DNA of 64,000 bases, from contig VJWN01000008.1 of NCBI GenBank assembly GCA_007644065.1, forward strand, positions 436,411-500,410, read 5' to 3'. Shown here one piece after another: positions 35,102 through 59,200 of this stretch; the first letter of the stretch is position 1, and each line of letters starts with the position of its first letter. A program made the translations under genes and the position numbers. Under the pieces are notes generated by a model. That model was not told the origin of the DNA, ran no database searches, and saw nothing but the letters and a program-made list of their open reading frames with translations. The stretch comes from Margaritispora aquatica. Lineage: Eukaryota > Ascomycota > Leotiomycetes > Helotiales > Discinellaceae.

Positions 35102-36492
35102 ATGGCATTACAAACATCTAGTATGGAGCTAAACAATCTCTCCAATGGCAACGAGAACAATCTCGAGGCAAGCGTTGAGCACCTAGAAGACTCTTCTCTC
35201 AATCATGAATTCTCTCTTCCACCAGCCGATGGCGGCAAAGCAGCATGGCTCTTCCTAGCCGCAGCATTTGTAGTCGAAGTACTTGTGTGGGGTTTCTCGT
35301 TCTCTTTCGGGGTATTTCAGGAGTATTACAGTACTCATGAGCCGTTTTCTTCTAACCCCTCTGGCATCGCTGTTGTGGGGACAACGGCAACTGGAATAAT
35401 GTACATGTCCGGTCTTGTTCTCTATCCTGCATACAAGAAATGGCCGTATCTTGCAAATACTTCCAAGTGGGCTGGGCTCCCACTGATGGCTGCAGGTTTA
35501 GTTGGAGCTTCTTTCGCAAAAGATAGCAATGGACTCATTGCAACTCAAGGCGTGCTTTATGGAATTGGAGGAAGCATTCTATACTGTCCATTGCTTGTGC
35601 TCATCGACGAGTGGTTCATTAAGCGAAAGGGTCTTGCTTTTGGAATCTTGTTTGTATGTATACCCTATCCTGCTCAGTGCCTTGGCTAAGTATCTTGCAG
35701 GCAGGGACAGGAGGTGGTGGTCTTATCACACCGTTTCTTCTTAACACACTTCTCGAGAAGTATGGTTTTCGCACAGCTCTCCGCATCTGGGCTGTAGCTT
35801 TGATCATTCTTGCCTCACCACTCATCTACTTCCTCCGCCCTCGACTTCCCATCTCCCCTGTGTCGCAAGTTCCACGGTATGGTCTTGGCTTCCTCGGAGA
35901 TCGTGGCTTCTGGCTTCTTCAAGTTGGATTGGCCTTTGAATCTCTCGGCTATTTCATTCCATCAATTTACCTACCTTCGTTCGCCAGCTCGTTGGGCCTC
36001 TCATCTTCAAAAGGGACGATGCTTGTTGCTCTCCTCAACGCAGCTGGTGTGTTCGCTTCCGTAGCAATGGGAATGTTAGTCGACCGCTTCCACGTAACGA
36101 CCGTCATCCTTATTAGCACCGTCGGGGCGACGATCTCAGTATTTCTCTTGTGGGGCCTTTCTACCGCCTTGCCTCTTCTATGCACCTTCAGCATTGTGTA
36201 TGGCTTCTTCGCAGGCGGATTCTCGAGCACAAACGCAGGCGTTATCAAGATGGTCAAAATGCAAGACCAAAGTGCTGATGTGGGGATCATGATCGGGATC
36301 ATCAGCGCGGCGAGGGGACTGGGCTCTATCGCTAGTGGACCTTTGTCTGAGGCATTGGTGAAGGGCAAGCCGTGGGCTGGGGAAGCAAGGTTTGCGTATG
36401 GTAGTGGGTATGGAGATCTGATTGTTTTCACTGGAGTCACCGCGGCGTTTGGAGGCATGAGCTTTTTGGGCAAGAGGCTGGGCTGGATGTAG
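35102..36492 (+). CDS. MFS transporter, monocarboxylate-porter (MCT) type
   Basis: Two exons with intron 35654-35700; 447 residues from ATG 35102. The frame is open upstream to about 34985, but this ATG is the first before the acidic cytosolic N-terminus (an internal ATG follows at 35126). The MCT signature DGGKAAW is followed by an ~11-12 helix membrane domain with SFGVFQEYY, GIGGSILYCP, AGTGGGGLITPFLL, RPRLP and the second-half motif MLVDRFHVTT. Fungal MCT-like carriers export or import small organic acids and secondary metabolites. The gene lies between the broken mannosyltransferase and the twin YG-repeat genes, so an exporter role for their product is possible, but nothing in the sequence proves it. 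Confidence 0.88.
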
Positions 36493-36875: not shown

Positions 36876-37247
36876 TCATGCTTCAACGACTTCGGCTTCA
36901 GCTTCAAGACGGCGGTATGTTCCGTAATTACTGTATGATCCGTACCCGGTAGGAGTTGGAGTTGGTCTACTGCTCGTGGTGGAAGGCTGCGGATAGTTCT
37001 GGTACTGTCCATATGCTTTGAGTGAGGACGGTTGATTAGAATGTTTCAATTTGATTAAAAAATATCTCAATTACTTACCACCGTACTGACCATAGTCTGG
37101 TATTGCATTAGTATATAACTTCTCATATCAAGGTAAGGATATCTTACTGCCATACTGAGGATTGGGTTCAGCGATTGGAGCCGGCGCTGGAGCAGCTGAG
37201 ATGAGAACTGCAGATGCTGCAAACAAGAGAGCAAAAGTGATCTTCAT
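36876..37247 (-). CDS. Small secreted Tyr-Gly-rich protein A (candidate RiPP precursor)
   Basis: Three exons (37148-37247, an 18-nt micro-exon 37079-37096, and 36876-37015) encode 85 residues. A signal peptide, MKITFALLFAASAVLISA, is followed by an APAPAP linker. The rest is a Tyr/Gly/Gln-rich series (NYGQYG, AYGQYQNYP, GYGSYSNYGTY) around a Ser/Thr/Pro spacer. It ends in a dibasic RR and an acidic LEAEAEVVEA tail. RR followed by EA repeats resembles Kex2 plus dipeptidyl-aminopeptidase processing sites. It is a paralog of the gene at 38548-38884: the same signal peptide type and the same YGxYxxYP and YGxYxxYGTY words. A UstYa-type oxidase sits 3.7 kb away, so it may be a precursor of a Tyr-crosslinked peptide. 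A structural wall protein is the alternative. Confidence 0.75.
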
Positions 37248-37354
37248 ATTAGAGATGTGATCGCGAGATAAAATAGGATACTTGTGTGCTAGGGAATTTG
37301 AAGATGTAGATTGGAGACGAGTAGAGAATGAACATCTCCCAGCGGCCGGGTACA

Positions 37355-37363
37355 CTATATATG
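37355..37363 (-). promoter_or_regulatory. TATA box of YG-repeat gene A
   Basis: ATATATAGT on the minus strand, about 110 bp upstream of ATG 37247. The paralog has TTATATATC at a similar distance. Confidence 0.45.
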
Positions 37364-38547
37364 CTTCTCCATCATGAAAAGCTAGGGCTCTGCGGGCACG
37401 GAGCTGGATTAAACTATATCTTCATATGCTAAAATCGCTCTTGGAGCAATGTACACAAGGATGATGAAATCTACTTCCTTGACATTCCCATACCTACTCC
37501 ATCTCGGACTTAGCAGCCTCCAATATTGCAACCCACCCAAACCCTCATTAGCTTCAATTTTAGGTTCAAGCTACGAGAAGCACATTAAGCAGAAGCTTCA
37601 CGCTACTCATTTGCACGAAGAAACCTAAGTTCTCCGAGCCTCATTCAAGGAAGGCCAAAGTGCCTAACAAAGGAAAGCTACATGAAATTTTCATCTAGCA
37701 GGCAGTATCTACATAAATTTATGAATATATTCAAGTGTATAGAATTGGTAGCATTTAAATCTCATAGCTGTCACCTGTAGACACACAAGTGCGGAGCGCT
37801 TTAAGTTGAAGGGAGTTCGAGAAAGCATGAATGTATCGCATATTGACCAAGGAGGAATCATACCAGCACATGCATGGCGGCAACTAATTTTGTTAATCGC
37901 AGCCAACCACGACAGGTGGTGGGAGAGTTTTCGGTAACACCGCAACGATCCAATGACATTCTCGCCGGCTATGCTAACAAGCATGCCGCAAACCGTCCTT
38001 ACAGAGCGGCTGAGCTAGAATTAGGCTCTTCTAGTAAATGGTAGTTTTAAATGATGTGATGCTCACAAGGTTTCTTGCTAAACATGGAGCGGGTGCATGT
38101 TAGCACCTAATTACTATGCCTTGGTAATCACTCACACAATTTAACTTAATTTTTGATTATCTTTGTAACACGAAACTTTACCCAAATTCCAATAGCATCA
38201 TGTTGGGCCGGAGTACATCAGTAAGCCTCTTCTTAATATAGCTACTTTAGACCATGAAGGTTATTTTCTGCAAATTGTATTTTTCAATCGAATTCTGTAA
38301 CATACACAGTGATAGTTTTAGGAGATTTAGATAATCTCCAATTAAGATTACTCATTCACATGTTCTTAATGATTGTGGTGCCTGTACATCTGCTGCGCTT
38401 ACAACCCAAGTGATTGTGAAATTTCCTGAAAGCAAAACACCAAGGTTCCCACTCATGAATTCGGCCCTCTCGCTTAGCCAATTTCATTTGCATTCGAAAG
38501 CGATTCAACACTTCAGAGCAGAACCTCCCGATTTCATTGCAGGGCCA
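37364..38547. other. Intergenic
   Basis: No gene is supported. Apart from the promoter of gene A, I see no exon-like frames. Confidence 0.45.
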
Positions 38548-38884
38548 CTACACCTCATCCTCGACACACTCATCGTACGTGCCATAATCCTCGTACTTTC
38601 CGTAACTCTCTTTCACCTCTGGATAAGTTTCGTACTTTCCGTAACCACCTTCCGGCTCTGGATAGTTGTCGTACTTCCCATAATCTAGGCAATAGATCAG
38701 TGGTGTTCAATGAGCGAGCCATCCAAACAAGGATGGCTGTTTATGACTTACTCCCATATCCGTCTGCTGCTGCTTTCGGGACAGGCTCTGGTGCAGGTTC
38801 TGGTGCAGGTTCTGGTGCAGCTGTTGGTGCAGCGCTCACAAATACAGCAGATGCTGCAAGGAGTATAGCGAATATGATCTTCAT
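38548..38884 (-). CDS. Small secreted Tyr-Gly-repeat protein B (candidate RiPP precursor)
   Basis: Two exons (38752-38884 and 38548-38684; intron GTAAGT...GCCTAG) encode 89 residues. A signal peptide (MKIIFAILLAASAVFVSA) is followed by a PAPEPAPEPAPEP linker. Exon 2 consists of three 13-residue repeats, each beginning YGKY and continuing with an acidic residue, a Tyr and an acidic spacer (YGKYDNYPEPEGG, YGKYETYPEVKES, YGKYEDYGTYDEC), then an acidic tail. There is no KR/RR site between the repeats. Repetition of a short Tyr core behind a signal peptide is the layout of dikaritin precursors, which UstYa-family oxidases cyclise; such an oxidase lies 2.0 kb upstream. Lack of dibasic sites argues that, if processed, another protease is used. 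The gene is too finely split to appear as one long frame. Confidence 0.78.
38566..38682 (-). repeat. Three 39-bp tandem repeats coding YGKY units
   Basis: Copies at 38644-38682, 38605-38643 and 38566-38604 share TA(T/C)GG(G/A)AAGTACGA at their starts. They diverge in the acidic spacer, so the Tyr core is kept while the linker changes. Confidence 0.8.
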
Positions 38885-38998
38885 ATTTGTAATGATGTTC
38901 TATAAATAGTTGGTTGAGAGAAGAGGATCGAGGGAGTAGGAAGTGAAAGCTGGAGAAGATGTTGAAAAAAAACGATCTCGATAGCAATAGAGGGACAT

Positions 38999-39008
38999 GA
39001 TATATAAC
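38999..39008 (-). promoter_or_regulatory. TATA box of YG-repeat gene B
   Basis: TTATATATC on the minus strand, about 117 bp before ATG 38884. Confidence 0.45.
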
Positions 39009-40911
39009 TTGTTCAGCAAAAATGTCTCGTGGTATGCCCGGCACGATCTGCCCTCTCTCCCTGTATCTGAAGAGAGCCAAGGTTGATCTTGCGAAGAGCT
39101 TACCAAAAAAGACACATGCAGACCAGAGCAATGACGAGATAGAAATTGCATTGCCACATATTCAGCGGGACTGCAGAAATCTAAAGAACCTTTTCTTTGT
39201 CGATCTGGATGTCCTCTGTGTCTGAAAGGGTGAAATAACGCAGCCCTAAGACATTCCTTTCCCAATTGACTTCATGTTCAATGGATCTACCAACGACCCA
39301 GAGTAATTCAAGGCAGGGCTTAGAAGACACAAACAAGACATCATAAGAAGCTCCGCGGCCGTGAAACATCGGCCACCACCAGTAGATCTTGTCTGATGCC
39401 CAAGAATCACCAAGAGATTCGGATTTAAAGATTTACATCAACGCTCGTGTATGCAAGACATATTACAAAAGTTAACAGGAATTGAAGCATTGTCGTTGAA
39501 ATCAAGAAAAGTGCGTGATTTCTTCTCTTACAAATTGAATCCGAAGGTTATAAATTCTCAAAGCAATTGTGGTCCAAGACATTCACAAAAGTGAGGTTAT
39601 TCCAGAATATCTTGACTCAACTCGTAAATAAAGAGGACATATTAAGCCTGTCTTGCAGAGAAGTTTTAGCTATCCCAATAAGGCAAGATGACAAGGGAAA
39701 TAAGCTTCATGCCGACCTACCCAAAATACATACCAAAGCATTCCCAATCGCCACTGCATGATAGTAGCGAGGAGCAGAGGTGCATAAACCCACCTACAGA
39801 GCAAGAAGCCCCGCACTCGGTCATCCCGTTGTCCAACGACCTGCCCACCATCGCACTTCTCCCGTAAAGTTTGGAACCTGCTGAATGGAATCAGCCCCGC
39901 ATACCAACGCCTCAAGTCTCTTGTCAATGTGCCGAGTCCGGATCTACAGACATCACACAACTCATGTGAACTCTCACACCACCATAAATCATACATCATA
40001 CATCATACGAGCACCATATAAGCTAGATGTTGTGATAGCGGGTGTAGTGGATTGTGGGATTGTGGGATTGAGATGTCCAGTAATCGAGTCTCAAGAATAG
40101 TTTAGAAACGTCGAAAGTAGGCTTGGTCGAGCTTGCTAAAGTAGCCTTTCGGCCAGATCAGCCTTATAATCTCCACTTTACTTTTCTCTATTTCTTAAGT
40201 TATTTATTCAGTATTAATTTAAAAAGCTTATTCCACGTAGTAAATATAACTCCTACATATTAATTTTATTCATTTAAAGAAAATTTGTTTTGACTTATCA
40301 AATACTAAAGTTATTTAGGTTCTTAGTTTCTTCTAAGAATTCTTTTTTGGTTTTCTAGAATCGAAAAAGGGTCCCACGAAGTGACATGAGTAGTGTACAC
40401 AGCTGTAAGCGAGCTAGGCCTTCTCTCGGTTAGATGGGAGTCACTGACGGCGGGGTAGGATGTACTTCCGTAGATGCGGGGTCAAGTGTCTCGTTCGTCC
40501 GCTCTAAGCTTTAACCGTTTCCAAACTTACCTATATGTCAAGACAGGCTTAGACTTTGTTTTTAGCCCTCCCTAGGTCAGCCACAATTACAGTTGAAACT
40601 AGCTCGCATGCTGTGATCTACTAGCGCTTTCGACAAGCAACTATGCGCCTCTCTCATTATCTTGTGCTGCTCTTTACTGGTGCTTGGAGAAGAGAAGGTT
40701 GCATCATAGATAAGTGATGAGCATGGAGATCATACCTGCTTGATAAGAACTAGCATGTGGTACAAGTGCCATTTCCTCACCTGGTATCGATATTCATTCA
40801 TCCTCATCAAATCGCTTAAACTTGTATAGCTCATCTTTCTCTCCAAGTATGCTTATTTAATTTATCCCGAATATTCAGATCCAAATCATCCATTGCTGCT
40901 AAGTCAATATA
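39009..40911. other. Intergenic between YG-repeat gene B and the UstYa gene
   Basis: No gene is supported. A CATACATCATACATCATACG repeat lies near 39990-40010. 40190-40330 is A/T-rich. This 1.9 kb separates divergent genes and could hold shared control elements. Confidence 0.4.
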
Positions 40912-41873
40912 ATGTCTTACCGACCACTTCACGACAAGAGCGAGGAGAGTTCACAAAGTGCGGGAGACAGCGAACGTTTACTATCTGAAAACTTAGAAGC
41001 CCAGCAGTCTTCACATTCGTCCACGAAAGCAAGATTTCAAATCCAACTCTGGCTAAAATTAAGTGTTGCTTGCCTACTGTCTGGTATTATCTTTGGGCTC
41101 GGAGCTTGGGTAGGAAGTCTTCATGTATCAGATAAAGATGCAGTTTGTCTACGGCATGTACAAAAATGGTGTAAGTTCTTTTCCAACATCAAAGGATAGC
41201 ATATTGATGCTTGCAGCTCCAATACAAGCAGAAGTTGATCCGTCATACCATCTGGTCCGCTTCAACGGATCTTTCATGAAGAAGAATGCCTATCGAGGAC
41301 CCGCGGGACCAGAGACAGACGCTGCCTGGGAAGCTCTAGGTATTAATTGTAAGTGTTATCAAATCACTTTCTATTTGCTCTGATGTCTGACAGATTTCAT
41401 AAGACCGATCACTTCGAGTTCCCACTAGTGAAGCCCCTCGTTCTGGTCTACTCGAATCACAAGTCCAAATCGACCAAAAATACGGAGGAGGCTTTCCCGC
41501 CAACGTCGAAGGACTGCATCACCTCCATTGTCTCAATCTTCTAAGACAATCTTTATACTACAACATTGATTACTACCGCGCTCAGGGGAAGGGAGCCTTC
41601 ATCAATAGTGAGAACATCGTGGAACACCACGTTTCGCATTGCTTGGATATCATCCGCCAACAGCTGATGTGTACCCCCGACACTGGACTATTGGGACAGA
41701 TTTGGTGGAACCTGGAAAGGCCCATGGCGTTTGTGGATTTCAATACCGAGCATAAGTGCAAGAATTATGAGGCTATTAGGCAGTGGGCACAGGCGAGACA
41801 GATTGATGAGAATGTACCAGAAGACTTTTTGAAGCCGCCCAGGGTGGGAGATGTGCTAGAGCACCTGCCTTAG
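40912..41873 (+). CDS. UstYa-family (DUF3328) oxidase
   Basis: Three exons (introns 41171-41216 and 41349-41403) encode 286 residues. There is an acidic cytosolic N-terminus, then one membrane helix at about 47-70 (LKLSVACLLSGIIFGLGAW), so it is a type II membrane protein. The family word FNGSF...YRGPAGPETDAAWEAL follows, then YGGGFPANVEG. The two diagnostic metal motifs are HHLHCLNLLRQ (HxxHC at 169-173) and HVSHCLDIIRQ (HxxHC at 206-210). Both are intact. The acceptor of intron 2 is CATAAG; the nearer GACAG leads to a stop. UstYa/UstYb homologues act in ustiloxin, phomopsin, asperipin, cyclochlorotine and victorin pathways, where they catalyse oxidative cyclisation or hydroxylation of peptides. 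It lies beside the twin Tyr-repeat genes, which supports a peptide-modifying role. Confidence 0.92.
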
Positions 41874-43945: not shown

Positions 43946-45732
43946 ATGACTAGCGCAATGGACGATGGCCATAGGTATGTATCCTCTAGAGTGTTCAGTT
44001 CCTCCGCCTAACCTGTTTAGATATCTTTACGCTGGTCAGGCATTCTGTAAGAAAGCAAACGATCTCGTTGATGTTTACTATACATGCCGGAAGGCATCTC
44101 AACCAGGCCAAGAGCCGAATCTTCAATGGGCATCAGATGCAAAAGGAACACCGTTCGATGAGCAATCTGGATTCCAAGTCAATGCTCTTGGCCTTATCGC
44201 TTCCAACAAGGGATCAGGCAGAGCTGAACTTAAGTTCAAGAGGCAGCAAGAAATACTTGAAATAATCGCCAAGCAATTTTTCGCTGAGGTATGGGTCCAG
44301 CAAAATCCTGAACTCACTCAAGATCTCTCAGCCAAAGAGAAAGGTCTGGGGAAGAAACCATCCATCAAGAATGCCAACAATTCTGAGAGTAAAGGAAAAA
44401 AGGTGACTCTATCAAACAGTCGACCCAAGCGTCTTGATCGTACTTACTCGTCCGGTGAAGACGATTCTTCTTCTGATGATAGCAGCAATGGCGGCCATCC
44501 CAAGAAGGGTGAAAAGTCAGATGACAAAAAAGTTGGTACCAATAATGGACGAGTAGAGTTCACACCTAGCGGAAAGCCGGGCCACACATGGTCAGCGGAT
44601 GCGTACAAGGATCGTAACGAGGACCCAGAAATCGTGGTACGGGAATTTGAAGCTGGCAAGATTGCTGTTGATAAGACAACAGTCCTTGGACATCCCAGCA
44701 CGCTCGATGTGGTGTGTTCCGCGTACAAGGCTGCCGGCTACAGTTTGCCAAAGGATGTCAATTTCTTTATCAGGGTTCATCGAATGCATTTACATCAGAT
44801 CGCCAAAAATATCAAGAGTATTGAAAAAGTCGAAGAGTGGAAGACAGGAAAGCCCAAAAAGGTAGGTGGTGTGTGTGAATCTTCCGTGTATCGTGCTAAT
44901 CTAGCTCTAGATCGGCTCCGATATTGGTCAGGATTTTTCCTGGTCAAAGTTGTCTGAACCTCGGAAGAGAATCGAGTCTTTTGTGAAACCTGCTACGCTC
45001 GGCGATGGTGGCGGACATCGAAAGACGCACAAACGCAAGATTGATGATACCTCTGATGAAGATGAAGAGCCATTGACCTCGAGGCATTGGCGTCAACGTG
45101 GCGACATTCGCAATGCCTTCCATCCAAAGGAGAGGAAGAGCCAAAACAAACGCCCACATCTCGAATCCGCGGCTATGCAAGAAGATCAAGAACCATCAGT
45201 TGCCACCCAAGTTCAAACACCTCCATTAGCACCAATTAACAAGCATGACAAGCGCGACAAAGTCTCTCCCCCAACCTCAAGTGAGAGCATCCCTCTACCA
45301 CAGGTGCAATCACGCGGCGATCACGACGTCACCACCATCGCTGGTCAACTTGCAGGTACTTCCATATCACATGGTTCACCTAGCCAAGGGGTAGAGAGGG
45401 AGCGTGAGCCAAATGCCACCAAACTGCAACCTCCGAAAGTCCCCGGCCTTCTGGTGAGCTTTAATTTGAGTCGGAGAAGAGTACGAACTCCAATGAAAAA
45501 GGTCGAACTTCCGCTTGGGCCTGATGGAGAAGTCCAGATTAATTGGGGTCTCAGAAGAGTACGAAATCCAATGAAAAAGGTTGAACTTCCACTTGGGCCT
45601 GATGGAGAAGTCCAGATTAATTGGGGTCTCAGAAGAGTACGAAATCCAATGAAAAAGGTTGAACTTCCACTTGGGCCTGATGGAGAAGTCCAGATTAATT
45701 GGGGTCTCAGAAGAGTGCGCAATCGAGGTTGA
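43946..45732 (+). CDS. Nuclear-looking hypothetical protein with C-terminal tandem repeats
   Basis: Three exons (43946-43974, 44021-44861, 44911-45732) give 563 residues. Intron 1 has a canonical GCCTAAC branch point. The N-terminus MTSAMDDGHRYLYAGQAFCK leads to a helical region. A Lys/Ser/Asp-rich linker (SSGEDDSSSDDSSNGG) follows, then a basic middle domain (GHPSTLDVVCSAYKAAGY, VHRMHLHQIAKNIKSIEKV). A Lys/Arg-rich segment (HRKTHKRKIDD) could be a nuclear signal. The C-terminus carries three 26-residue repeats plus a partial fourth. No catalytic motif is visible. It looks like a fast-evolving, lineage-restricted nuclear protein; function unknown. Confidence 0.72.
45475..45723 (+). repeat. 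78-bp tandem repeat, 3.2 copies
   Basis: Units start at 45475, 45553 and 45631, with a partial unit at 45709. Units 2 and 3 appear identical over 78 bp; unit 1 differs at a few bases. Each codes RRVRNPMKKVELPLGPDG followed by EVQINWGL. Confidence 0.92.
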
Positions 45733-57522: not shown

Positions 57523-59200
57523 TCAACCTTGAACATCTCCCCCGAATCCAACAGGTCTCCTCCTCCCACCACTTTCAGGCAAGATAGCCATAGCCTTATA
57601 CACCTTCCCCATTCCACTCCCATCTCTATCAACCAACCTCTTCCACGCACCATCTACAGTCTTCTTCTTCTCCTCATCTGCACCCAGAGCTTTAACCAGC
57701 ATCTCGGCTCTCTCCTTGATACCCATCGATTGCAAGAAGAACCCCTGCTCGACAGGACCATGGACTTCCACTCCTGGCGAAGCGCCGAGAGCAGCTTCGG
57801 CCAGGGCAACAAAGTCAACATCTGCCGAGAGATCGACGAGGCCGGGTGCGCTGAGAGGGGAAACTCGCTTGTGGGCTCTGATGCCGCGGAGAGAATTGGT
57901 GGGTATTGTGTCGGCAGGACCGTAGTCCAGGATGATAGCTGCACCAGAGGGATTTGATTTAGGCTCGGCTGATGTGCCTCCAATACGCCTGGCGAACTCT
58001 TGAGCATAGGCATGGGATTCGGGGGATACCTCGATAAGCGAATCTGGCGTTGATTTTAGTGCTCGGTAGCGAGCTGATATTTCAGGTAGGTATAGACTGT
58101 GTGGTGTGGCAGCCTTGGAGAGCGTGAGTTGGAATTCCGGGGGTGGATTAGAAGACTGCTGTGATTTTGGAGTATGGAGTGTGGTGTGGGTTGCGTCTGG
58201 TGGTGTTGGAGAGACAACCATTTCTCGCCATTGTGGTCCTTTGGCCTGCCTGCTTTTGGTGGCTTCTGGGGCAAGCTTATGCTCTCCCGTGGGAGTTTTG
58301 ATGGTATCTGGTGTTTGCGCCGAGTCCGAGGGTGCTATAGATTGGAAGGCGTGAATGGGAAGTGCATCAAAGAATTCATGAGCTACGATAAAGGGCGTTT
58401 TGTCATGTGCTGGGAGTTGGTTAGCATTTGGTGTCATACTCAATCATTTTGTACACTTACATGAAGGTACAAATCTTAAATTCTCCGTCCATACAATAGG
58501 AACACTGGCATATTTGCTTATGCACTTGTGTCCAATTGAAGTCTCCTCCATGACAGCATCCTCTCCACAGAGTAGCTTTTTCTGAGCTTCCCTAAGTGAA
58601 GGACTCGCTTCGACCATATACACAGCTTCAATACTCGAGGCCATTGGTTTGAAATTTCGTATTGTCTATATATCTAATCAGCGAATGCGTCCTACATAGA
58701 TATACAGAATATAAACATACTCTTAACATATCATCCATCAGCGTTCCTCTCCCAGGACCAATCTCAATCAGCTCCACTCCCCTTGGCTTTCGTCCTTGTG
58801 CCATCCATTCCGACACAAACCATATGCCAAGAAGTTCTCCGAATATCTGAGATATTTCTGGTGAGGTGATAAAGTCGCCCTTCTGGCCAAACTGATCTTT
58901 GCCCTCCTCACTGCTCATGTAGTATCCTCCCACATCGGAGGTCAAGCACATTCGCATGAACGCAGCCAAAGGAATTGGGCCAGTAGCCTAGGTATACTAT
59001 CAGCATATATCTGCAATAAAATCTTGTAGACTAACAGTAATGGCTTCAGAAAGCTGTTTCGCTAGGGGTGTACTCCATTGTCTCGTCTCTGATGACGACC
59101 ATCTCACAGTAGAAGCTAATACTCCCCCGTTCCACACTTTATTATTTCTTGCCGCACTTCTCAGCAGATTTCGTGCCTGATTTGACACGATTGACCTCAT
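57523..59200 (-). CDS. NDUFAF7: NDUFAF7/MidA-family protein arginine methyltransferase, mitochondrial
   Basis: Several exons from ATG 59200 to TGA 57523. An Arg/Asn/Ser-rich presequence without acidic residues (MRSIVSNQARNLLRSAARNN) is followed by GPIPLAAFMRMCLTS, GDFITSPEISQIFGELLGIW, and the SAM-binding VELIEIGPGRGTLMDDMLR. VYMVEASPSLREAQ and FIVAHEFFDALPIHAF follow, and AAIILDYGPA and DVDFVALAEAA complete the family signature. The enzyme symmetrically dimethylates an Arg of the NDUFS2 subunit and is needed for early complex I assembly. A Ser/Pro/Thr-rich insertion of about 80 residues after the HEFFDALP motif lengthens this fungal form. All SAM-binding residues seem intact. Confidence 0.92.

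Follow-up and report, generated by a model that had tools for sequence, protein, structure and literature searches.

What might a UstYa-family oxidase act on when it lies beside two small genes whose predicted products carry runs of tyrosines three residues apart? This arrangement is found in a stretch of 64,000 nucleotides from Margaritispora aquatica (C48:436411-500410, hereafter the window), part of a fungal genome that totals 42.4 Mb over 49 contigs. We name the small genes YG1 and YG2 and describe a second pairing of such a gene with a UstYa gene elsewhere in the genome. We consider the chances about even that the UstYa enzyme acts within the secretory pathway to crosslink a tyrosine ladder of the form (YGx)n, which would make the pair a minimal dikaritin-like system for a ribosomally synthesized and post-translationally modified peptide (RiPP). 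Among the titles listed in a literature search, with subscription papers mostly outside it and supplements not covered, none describes the pair; a separate reference title names a Trichoderma protein rich in proline, glycine and tyrosine.

A UstYa gene beside two tyrosine-ladder genes

The UstYa/DUF3328 oxidase gene (40912..41873, plus strand; exons 40912-41170, 41217-41348 and 41404-41873, GT-AG) encodes 286 amino acids. Judged by its sequence, the enzyme is a UstYa-family protein, matching PF11807 with an E-value of 6e-57 (193.5 bits, cut-off 25). A preliminary description of the locus had reported a complete gene with both HxxHC motifs, and both are in place (HHLHC at residue 169, HVSHC at residue 206); inspection also indicates an N-terminal membrane helix. 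DUF3328 enzymes are described as membrane-anchored, lumen-facing, binuclear-copper and O2-dependent, the copper centre and oxidase activity being known for CctR (PMC12435403; this and the other papers cited are drawn on for the available portions of their text). The gene is transcribed divergently from YG2, across an intergenic region of 2027 bp up to the YG2 start (38885..40911, no strand assigned).

YG1 (36876..37247, minus strand; exons 37247-37148, 37096-37079 and 37015-36876) encodes a predicted secreted protein of 85 residues, MKITFALLFAASAVLISAAPAPAPIAEPNPQYGNYGQYGAYGQYQNYPQPSTTSSRPTPTPTGYGSYSNYGTYRRLEAEAEVVEA, and YG2 (38548..38884, minus strand; exons 38884-38752 and 38684-38548) one of 89 residues, MKIIFAILLAASAVFVSAAPTAAPEPAPEPAPEPVPKAAADGYGNYGKYDNYPEPEGGYGKYETYPEVKESYGKYEDYGTYDECVEDEV. 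The two small split paralogues reported earlier are thus recovered, with three and two exons; splicing, predicted from sequence, is required because read-through of either YG1 intron or of the YG2 intron meets a stop on translation. The middle exon of YG1 is a microexon of 18 nt (37079..37096, minus strand, splice sites by inspection), phase 1 at both ends, which adds one YGxYG step. Both proteins begin with MK and a hydrophobic stretch ending in SA|AP, a predicted signal peptide by inspection, and the Pro/Ala linker described earlier is likewise visible. In YG1 the signal peptide is followed by an Ala/Pro linker, six and then four tyrosines at three-residue spacing, an RR pair and an acidic tail; in YG2 an X-Pro/X-Ala linker precedes tyrosine runs of four, three and four. 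None of the YG proteins, including the third presented below, scores above cut-off against any Pfam or NCBIfam family, and in a sequence search of the Protein Data Bank (PDB) with YG2 the only matches were weak ones between its Pro/Ala linker and myosin light chain 3.

A repeat of 13 residues had been noted in one of these proteins. It exists in YG2, which has three units of roughly 13 residues; a repeat scan finds a 39-bp period in 2.4 copies (38591..38683, minus strand) corresponding to these YGKYxxY units. The feature common to all YG copies is a three-residue tyrosine ladder, in which tyrosine is often followed by glycine in YG1 and YG2. Gaps between successive tyrosines are 3,3,3,3,3,17,3,3,3 in YG1, 3,3,3,7,3,3,7,3,3,3 in YG2 and 3,3,7,3,3,18,3,6,3,3,6 in the third protein, YG3. 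When the mature region of each was permuted, none of 20,000 permutations equaled the observed number of tyrosine pairs three apart.

A second divergent pair on another contig

A family search of the genome yielded 17 UstYa fragments, which we grouped as the window and nine other regions. For each of these nine we scanned 20 kb of sequence in six frames, which covered roughly 7-11 kb to each side of the UstYa matches. Besides YG1 and YG2, clusters of YGxY were found at a single further site, YG3 on contig C6, that is, in one of the nine other UstYa regions. Over the 262 kb scanned, eight pairs of YGxY within 40 residues occur, all of them in YG1, YG2 and YG3, for a Markov null mean of 0.03 per 262 kb (maximum 1 in 30 draws). 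Looser scans are less selective. Three stretches have at least seven tyrosines in 30 residues, one being YG2 and two non-YG (in L020 and L027); of three four-tyrosine ladders (null mean of 0.15, with at most 2 in 60 draws), two are YG1 and YG2 and one, in L027, is non-YG. YG3 lies below both thresholds.

The YG3 gene (L022, contig C6, minus strand; exons 7831-7720 and 7608-7421) encodes MKFNITLVAFVALAIPALAAPAAVVIEERAADPAYGDYGKYPTPAGGYGSYGAYGKATATPTPTPSPKPASYGTYPKLPSYATYGSYKRVSDYVKSLFV, a tyrosine ladder with Pro-rich linkers and a predicted signal peptide that is clear by inspection. Its intron is in phase 1 after YGD, and YG1 and YG2 each have one after YGN. A complete UstYa gene, its start codon 1326 bp away, is transcribed divergently from YG3. 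The C6 enzyme has 288 residues, matches PF11807 (E 3.1e-56, 191.1 bits) and carries HxxHC motifs at residues 170 and 207. It is identical to the window enzyme at 142 of 281 aligned residues, reaching 69% across 77 core-exon residues, and the two share the subfamily stretch GLLESQVQ...KYGGG[FY]PANVEGLHHLHC. The other UstYa fragments align to the window enzyme in high-scoring segment pairs (HSPs) of 21-35% identity, and the regions on C2 and at C1:1672k give no HSP to it at E 0.01. By sequence, the C6 enzyme is thus by far the closest to that of the window among the nine other regions. The proposed link between YG genes and the oxidase is strengthened accordingly, the divergent pair recurring at the sole other UstYa region with an enzyme of the same subfamily.

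What else do the two loci have in common? A tblastn search with the 592 window open reading frames (ORFs) of at least 50 amino acids against the 20 kb of C6 gave eight HSPs, five from the window UstYa in sense, two from its antisense and one stray from elsewhere (E 6e-4). The low-complexity filter was on, which makes YG genes invisible in this search. The C6 UstYa gene accounts for all eight HSPs; within these tests, the units common to both loci are therefore the UstYa gene and a YG gene. The gene for a major facilitator superfamily (MFS) transporter at 35102-36492, suggested earlier as an exporter, does not travel with the pair: it has no tblastn match in the nine other UstYa regions, C6 included, and a Pfam scan of 16 of the 54 C6 ORFs revealed no MFS domain. 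An MFS exporter is also unnecessary, since a precursor with a signal peptide needs none.

Three kinds of tailoring enzyme had been reported missing. For tyrosinase this is correct (at least 22 matches in the genome, none of them inside the window or the 20 kb of C6). As to methyltransferases, a Methyltransf_28 ORF lies at 57523-58440, 16 kb away. For cytochrome P450s, no match was obtained in the 18 of 36 window ORFs (at least 150 amino acids) that were scanned, and no search aimed at P450s was made. A PDB search by sequence with the UstYa query found no relative at E 1e-3, a single-sequence model of the core exon was unusable (mean predicted local distance difference test score 42.7), and collections of bacterial and archaeal genomes and viral contigs held no relatives of the window and C6 enzymes, as expected of a fungal family.

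A possible route from ladder to product

Under the reading that UstYa crosslinks the ladder, the YG precursor would enter the endoplasmic reticulum by means of its signal peptide and meet, in the secretory pathway, the membrane-anchored UstYa with its active site in the lumen. The enzyme would join successive tyrosines of each Y-G-x-Y run, i to i+3, phenol oxygen to beta-carbon; one tyrosine bridge of asperipin-2a, considered below, reportedly spans i to i+3. Each bridge would cost the peptide 2 H. In YG1 and YG2 a STE13-type dipeptidase would trim the N-terminal X-Pro/X-Ala linker, and Kex2/Kex1 would remove the tail after the last ladder tyrosine (at RR in YG1, at KR in YG3). Each precursor would yield a single long peptide with multiple bridges instead of many small excised rings. 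For the trimmed forms predicted by this route, the calculated linear monoisotopic masses are 4784.064 for YG1 residues 31-73 (4767.037 as pyroGlu), 5725.363 for YG2 residues 41-89 and 5578.620 for YG3 residues 34-87, from which every crosslink would take away 2.016. The earlier proposal of YGKY units as individually excised cores finds no support, since nothing recognizable is present that would cut them out; a single ladder-like product from each precursor is a better fit. More tentatively, and with some doubt on our part, we suggest that a dedicated UstYa subfamily may walk the (YGx)n ladder, bridging each tyrosine to the next, and that the resulting rigid multi-ring rod may be released whole by general proteases.

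Points against this reading, and alternative explanations

Several observations weigh against a ladder crosslinked by UstYa. The case is built on one genome's sequence. YG3 was met by scanning near UstYa genes, so that the genome-wide test is biased. In whole-genome protein queries each YG gene finds itself, and YG1 and YG2 also find each other and two weak, unrelated places; since the YG1 and YG2 queries miss YG3, distant YG copies could be missed as well. The two weak YG1 matches, on C47 (E 0.10) and C8 (E 0.17), were rejected on reading the surrounding sequence, that on C47 appearing by inspection to be a piece of a larger peptidase-like gene. Both YG-UstYa pairs may descend from one duplicated ancestral pair, in which case the association was kept and did not arise twice. 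Finally, no 12-mer is common to the window and C6 divergent regions. Two 11-mers are, one of them an A/T run that precedes YG2 and YG3 by 79-92 bp, and another 11-mer is common to the window region and the sequence upstream of YG1; we did not count these as evidence and rejected a shared promoter element.

The processing sites count against it too. There is no dibasic site between repeats in YG1, YG2 or YG3, as the preliminary description had already pointed out, and YG2 has none anywhere. The only dibasic site of YG1 is the RR at 74, directly after the last ladder tyrosine, a refinement of that description; the only one of YG3 is a KR at 88, directly after the ladder. Removal of an X-Pro/X-Ala dipeptide pattern from pheromone precursors is known for STE13 (PMC6339444, PMC9769878). 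If the signal peptide is cleaved at SA|AP, the YG2 linker consists of such dipeptides at 11 of 11 positions (permutation p 0.013); the YG1 linker does so at 6 of 6, which is not significant (p 0.18), and the YG3 linker does not fit the register by inspection. We rejected a dipeptidase register as a general YG feature and regard it as suggestive for YG2 alone. The genome holds S9B-type dipeptidase genes and a Kex2-type (kexin) P-domain.

These sites bear directly on the first alternative, that YG proteins are intact structural or adhesive extracellular proteins whose tyrosines UstYa crosslinks or hydroxylates within or between chains, with no peptide natural product. The lack of cut sites between repeats, complete in YG2, is what such proteins would lead one to expect; the mature regions of all three are rich in tyrosine (about 15%), glycine (11%) and proline (14-16%), and the recurrent pairing with UstYa suits this explanation equally. 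We nevertheless think it unlikely: mature chains would be only ~45-80 residues long, in YG1 and YG3 the dibasic pair is followed by a tail, inspection reveals no wall anchor, and in the literature searched we met no case of a wall protein as the substrate of a UstYa enzyme.

Could the YG proteins instead be linear secreted peptide precursors, or effector-like small proteins, that have no chemical link to UstYa and are its neighbors through co-regulation or shared ancestry? It is hard to see why a divergent pair would then be kept at two loci with no other neighbors in common, or why the periodic residue should be tyrosine, which is the bridged residue of ustiloxin, phomopsin and asperipin-2a (PMC7329392). 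In its favor, a signal peptide, a linker of X-Pro/X-Ala type and a dibasic site at the end are reminiscent of STE13/Kex2-processed pheromone-type precursors (PMC6339444, PMC9769878), and UstYa proteins act on non-ribosomal peptides too (PMC12435403). On balance this seems quite improbable to us.

That small tyrosine-rich secreted genes merely happened to fall near two related UstYa genes is very unlikely, for although YG-type frequency is known from the biased scan of UstYa surroundings and the looser scans do return non-YG matches while leaving out YG3, no other YGxY cluster exists in the 262 kb, intron position, orientation and tyrosine register are alike in all three YG genes, and the second copy accompanies the UstYa paralogue that is nearest among the nine regions.

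We also considered, and set aside, a glutaminyl cyclase. A secreted-looking M28 protein (L022:4863-6347, contig C6, minus strand; PF04389) adjoins YG3, and it resembles glutaminyl-peptide cyclotransferases (best PDB match 8vpl, followed by glutaminyl cyclases). An N-terminal Gln is expected for trimmed YG1 but not for trimmed YG3, and no window ORF matches the M28 protein.

Comparison with known peptide systems

Asperipin-2a of Aspergillus flavus offers the nearest parallel to a UstYa-crosslinked ladder. This dikaritin, with core FYYTGY, is made by a four-gene cluster, aprA, aprY, aprT and aprR, in which a single UstYa-family enzyme, AprY, is required for both ether bridges between tyrosine side chain and beta-carbon (PMC6514808). 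A single UstYa-family enzyme, a small cluster and a tyrosine-rich core with Y-x-x-Y spacing are likenesses, as is the lack of tyrosinase, absent from the apr four-gene cluster in the available account and from both YG surroundings (PMC6514808). The asperipin-2a precursor, however, is listed with the Kex2-processed repeat precursors from which cores are released (PMC9769878), whereas YG proteins lack dibasic sites between repeats and have a far longer tyrosine run; and the apr cluster includes a transporter and a reductase, whereas only oxidase and YG gene recur here. Ustiloxin and phomopsin are likewise derived from signal-peptide repeat precursors encoded beside UstYa-family genes, with tyrosine bridged (PMC7329392), but they have Kex2-separated cores, at least two UstYa genes and a required tyrosinase, none of which is seen at the YG loci.

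Kex2-processed repeat proteins (KEPs) are also small, secreted and repetitive, and 22% of KEP genes are near DUF3328 genes (PMC7329392); they are defined by dibasic sites around each repeat, which YG proteins lack. A more distant likeness is found in the plant burpitide (BURP-domain) cyclases, copper enzymes with four planar histidines that form tyrosine ether crosslinks in ribosomal precursors (PMC12435403, PMC11253845), although they belong to an unrelated family and the parallel is one of analogy only.

Is the YG-UstYa system then a dikaritin? It has the enzyme of the class, a predicted signal peptide and repeated tyrosine units, as dikaritins do, and it has no Kex2 sites between cores. Kex2-separated cores have served as a defining criterion (PMC9769878), and such criteria were used for Venturia inaequalis (PMC9632046). 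Because YG proteins have no Kex2 sites separating cores, canonical membership fails; judged from its sequences, the system is a dikaritin-like variant.

Other UstYa regions in the genome

A precursor of more conventional appearance is found on contig C35 (L025:5085-6148), about 2 kb from a group of three UstYa matches at C35:46958-47603. It comprises nine HTEKQIAAKKAKA units, each with KK and none with tyrosine; an intron is likely, since eight units are in one frame and one, upstream, is in another. From its sequence we assign it to the conventional-looking di-histidine KEPs, a kind reported by Umemura as types G-3 and G-8 (PMC7329392), the assignment being our own. As it occurs in the same genome, the YG type would be a second kind of UstYa neighbor in one organism.

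On contig C5, matches to tyrosinase and to UstYa are 12.4 kb apart (C5:606555-606884 and C5:619305-619642), possibly a conventional dikaritin cluster. Two UstYa matches contain stops, six at C2:1802026-1802421 and two at C5:991131-991475, and may represent unread introns or decayed copies. Within the window, a 78-bp tandem repeat at 45461-45724 (3.4 copies, 95% alike) lies in an open frame and encodes a repeated RRVRNPMKKVELPLGPDGEVQINWGL unit with dibasic pairs.

Significance for fungal peptide pathways

Fungal RiPPs are sought by way of Kex2-separated repeats next to DUF3328 genes, and certain DUF3328 clusters, in two lichen clans, have been reported to lack a recognized repeat precursor (PMC12048977). 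If YG and UstYa are substrate and enzyme, they would provide a further precursor signature that can be searched for: tyrosines three residues apart, an intron in phase 1 following YG[N/D] and divergent orientation. YG1, in which as many as six tyrosines are evenly spaced, would then also be a natural substrate for the study of how UstYa enzymes choose and repeat their crosslinks. Should the ladder indeed be turned into a rod and released whole, it would represent a type of fungal RiPP without excised cores, one that is missed by searches for Kex2-separated repeats.

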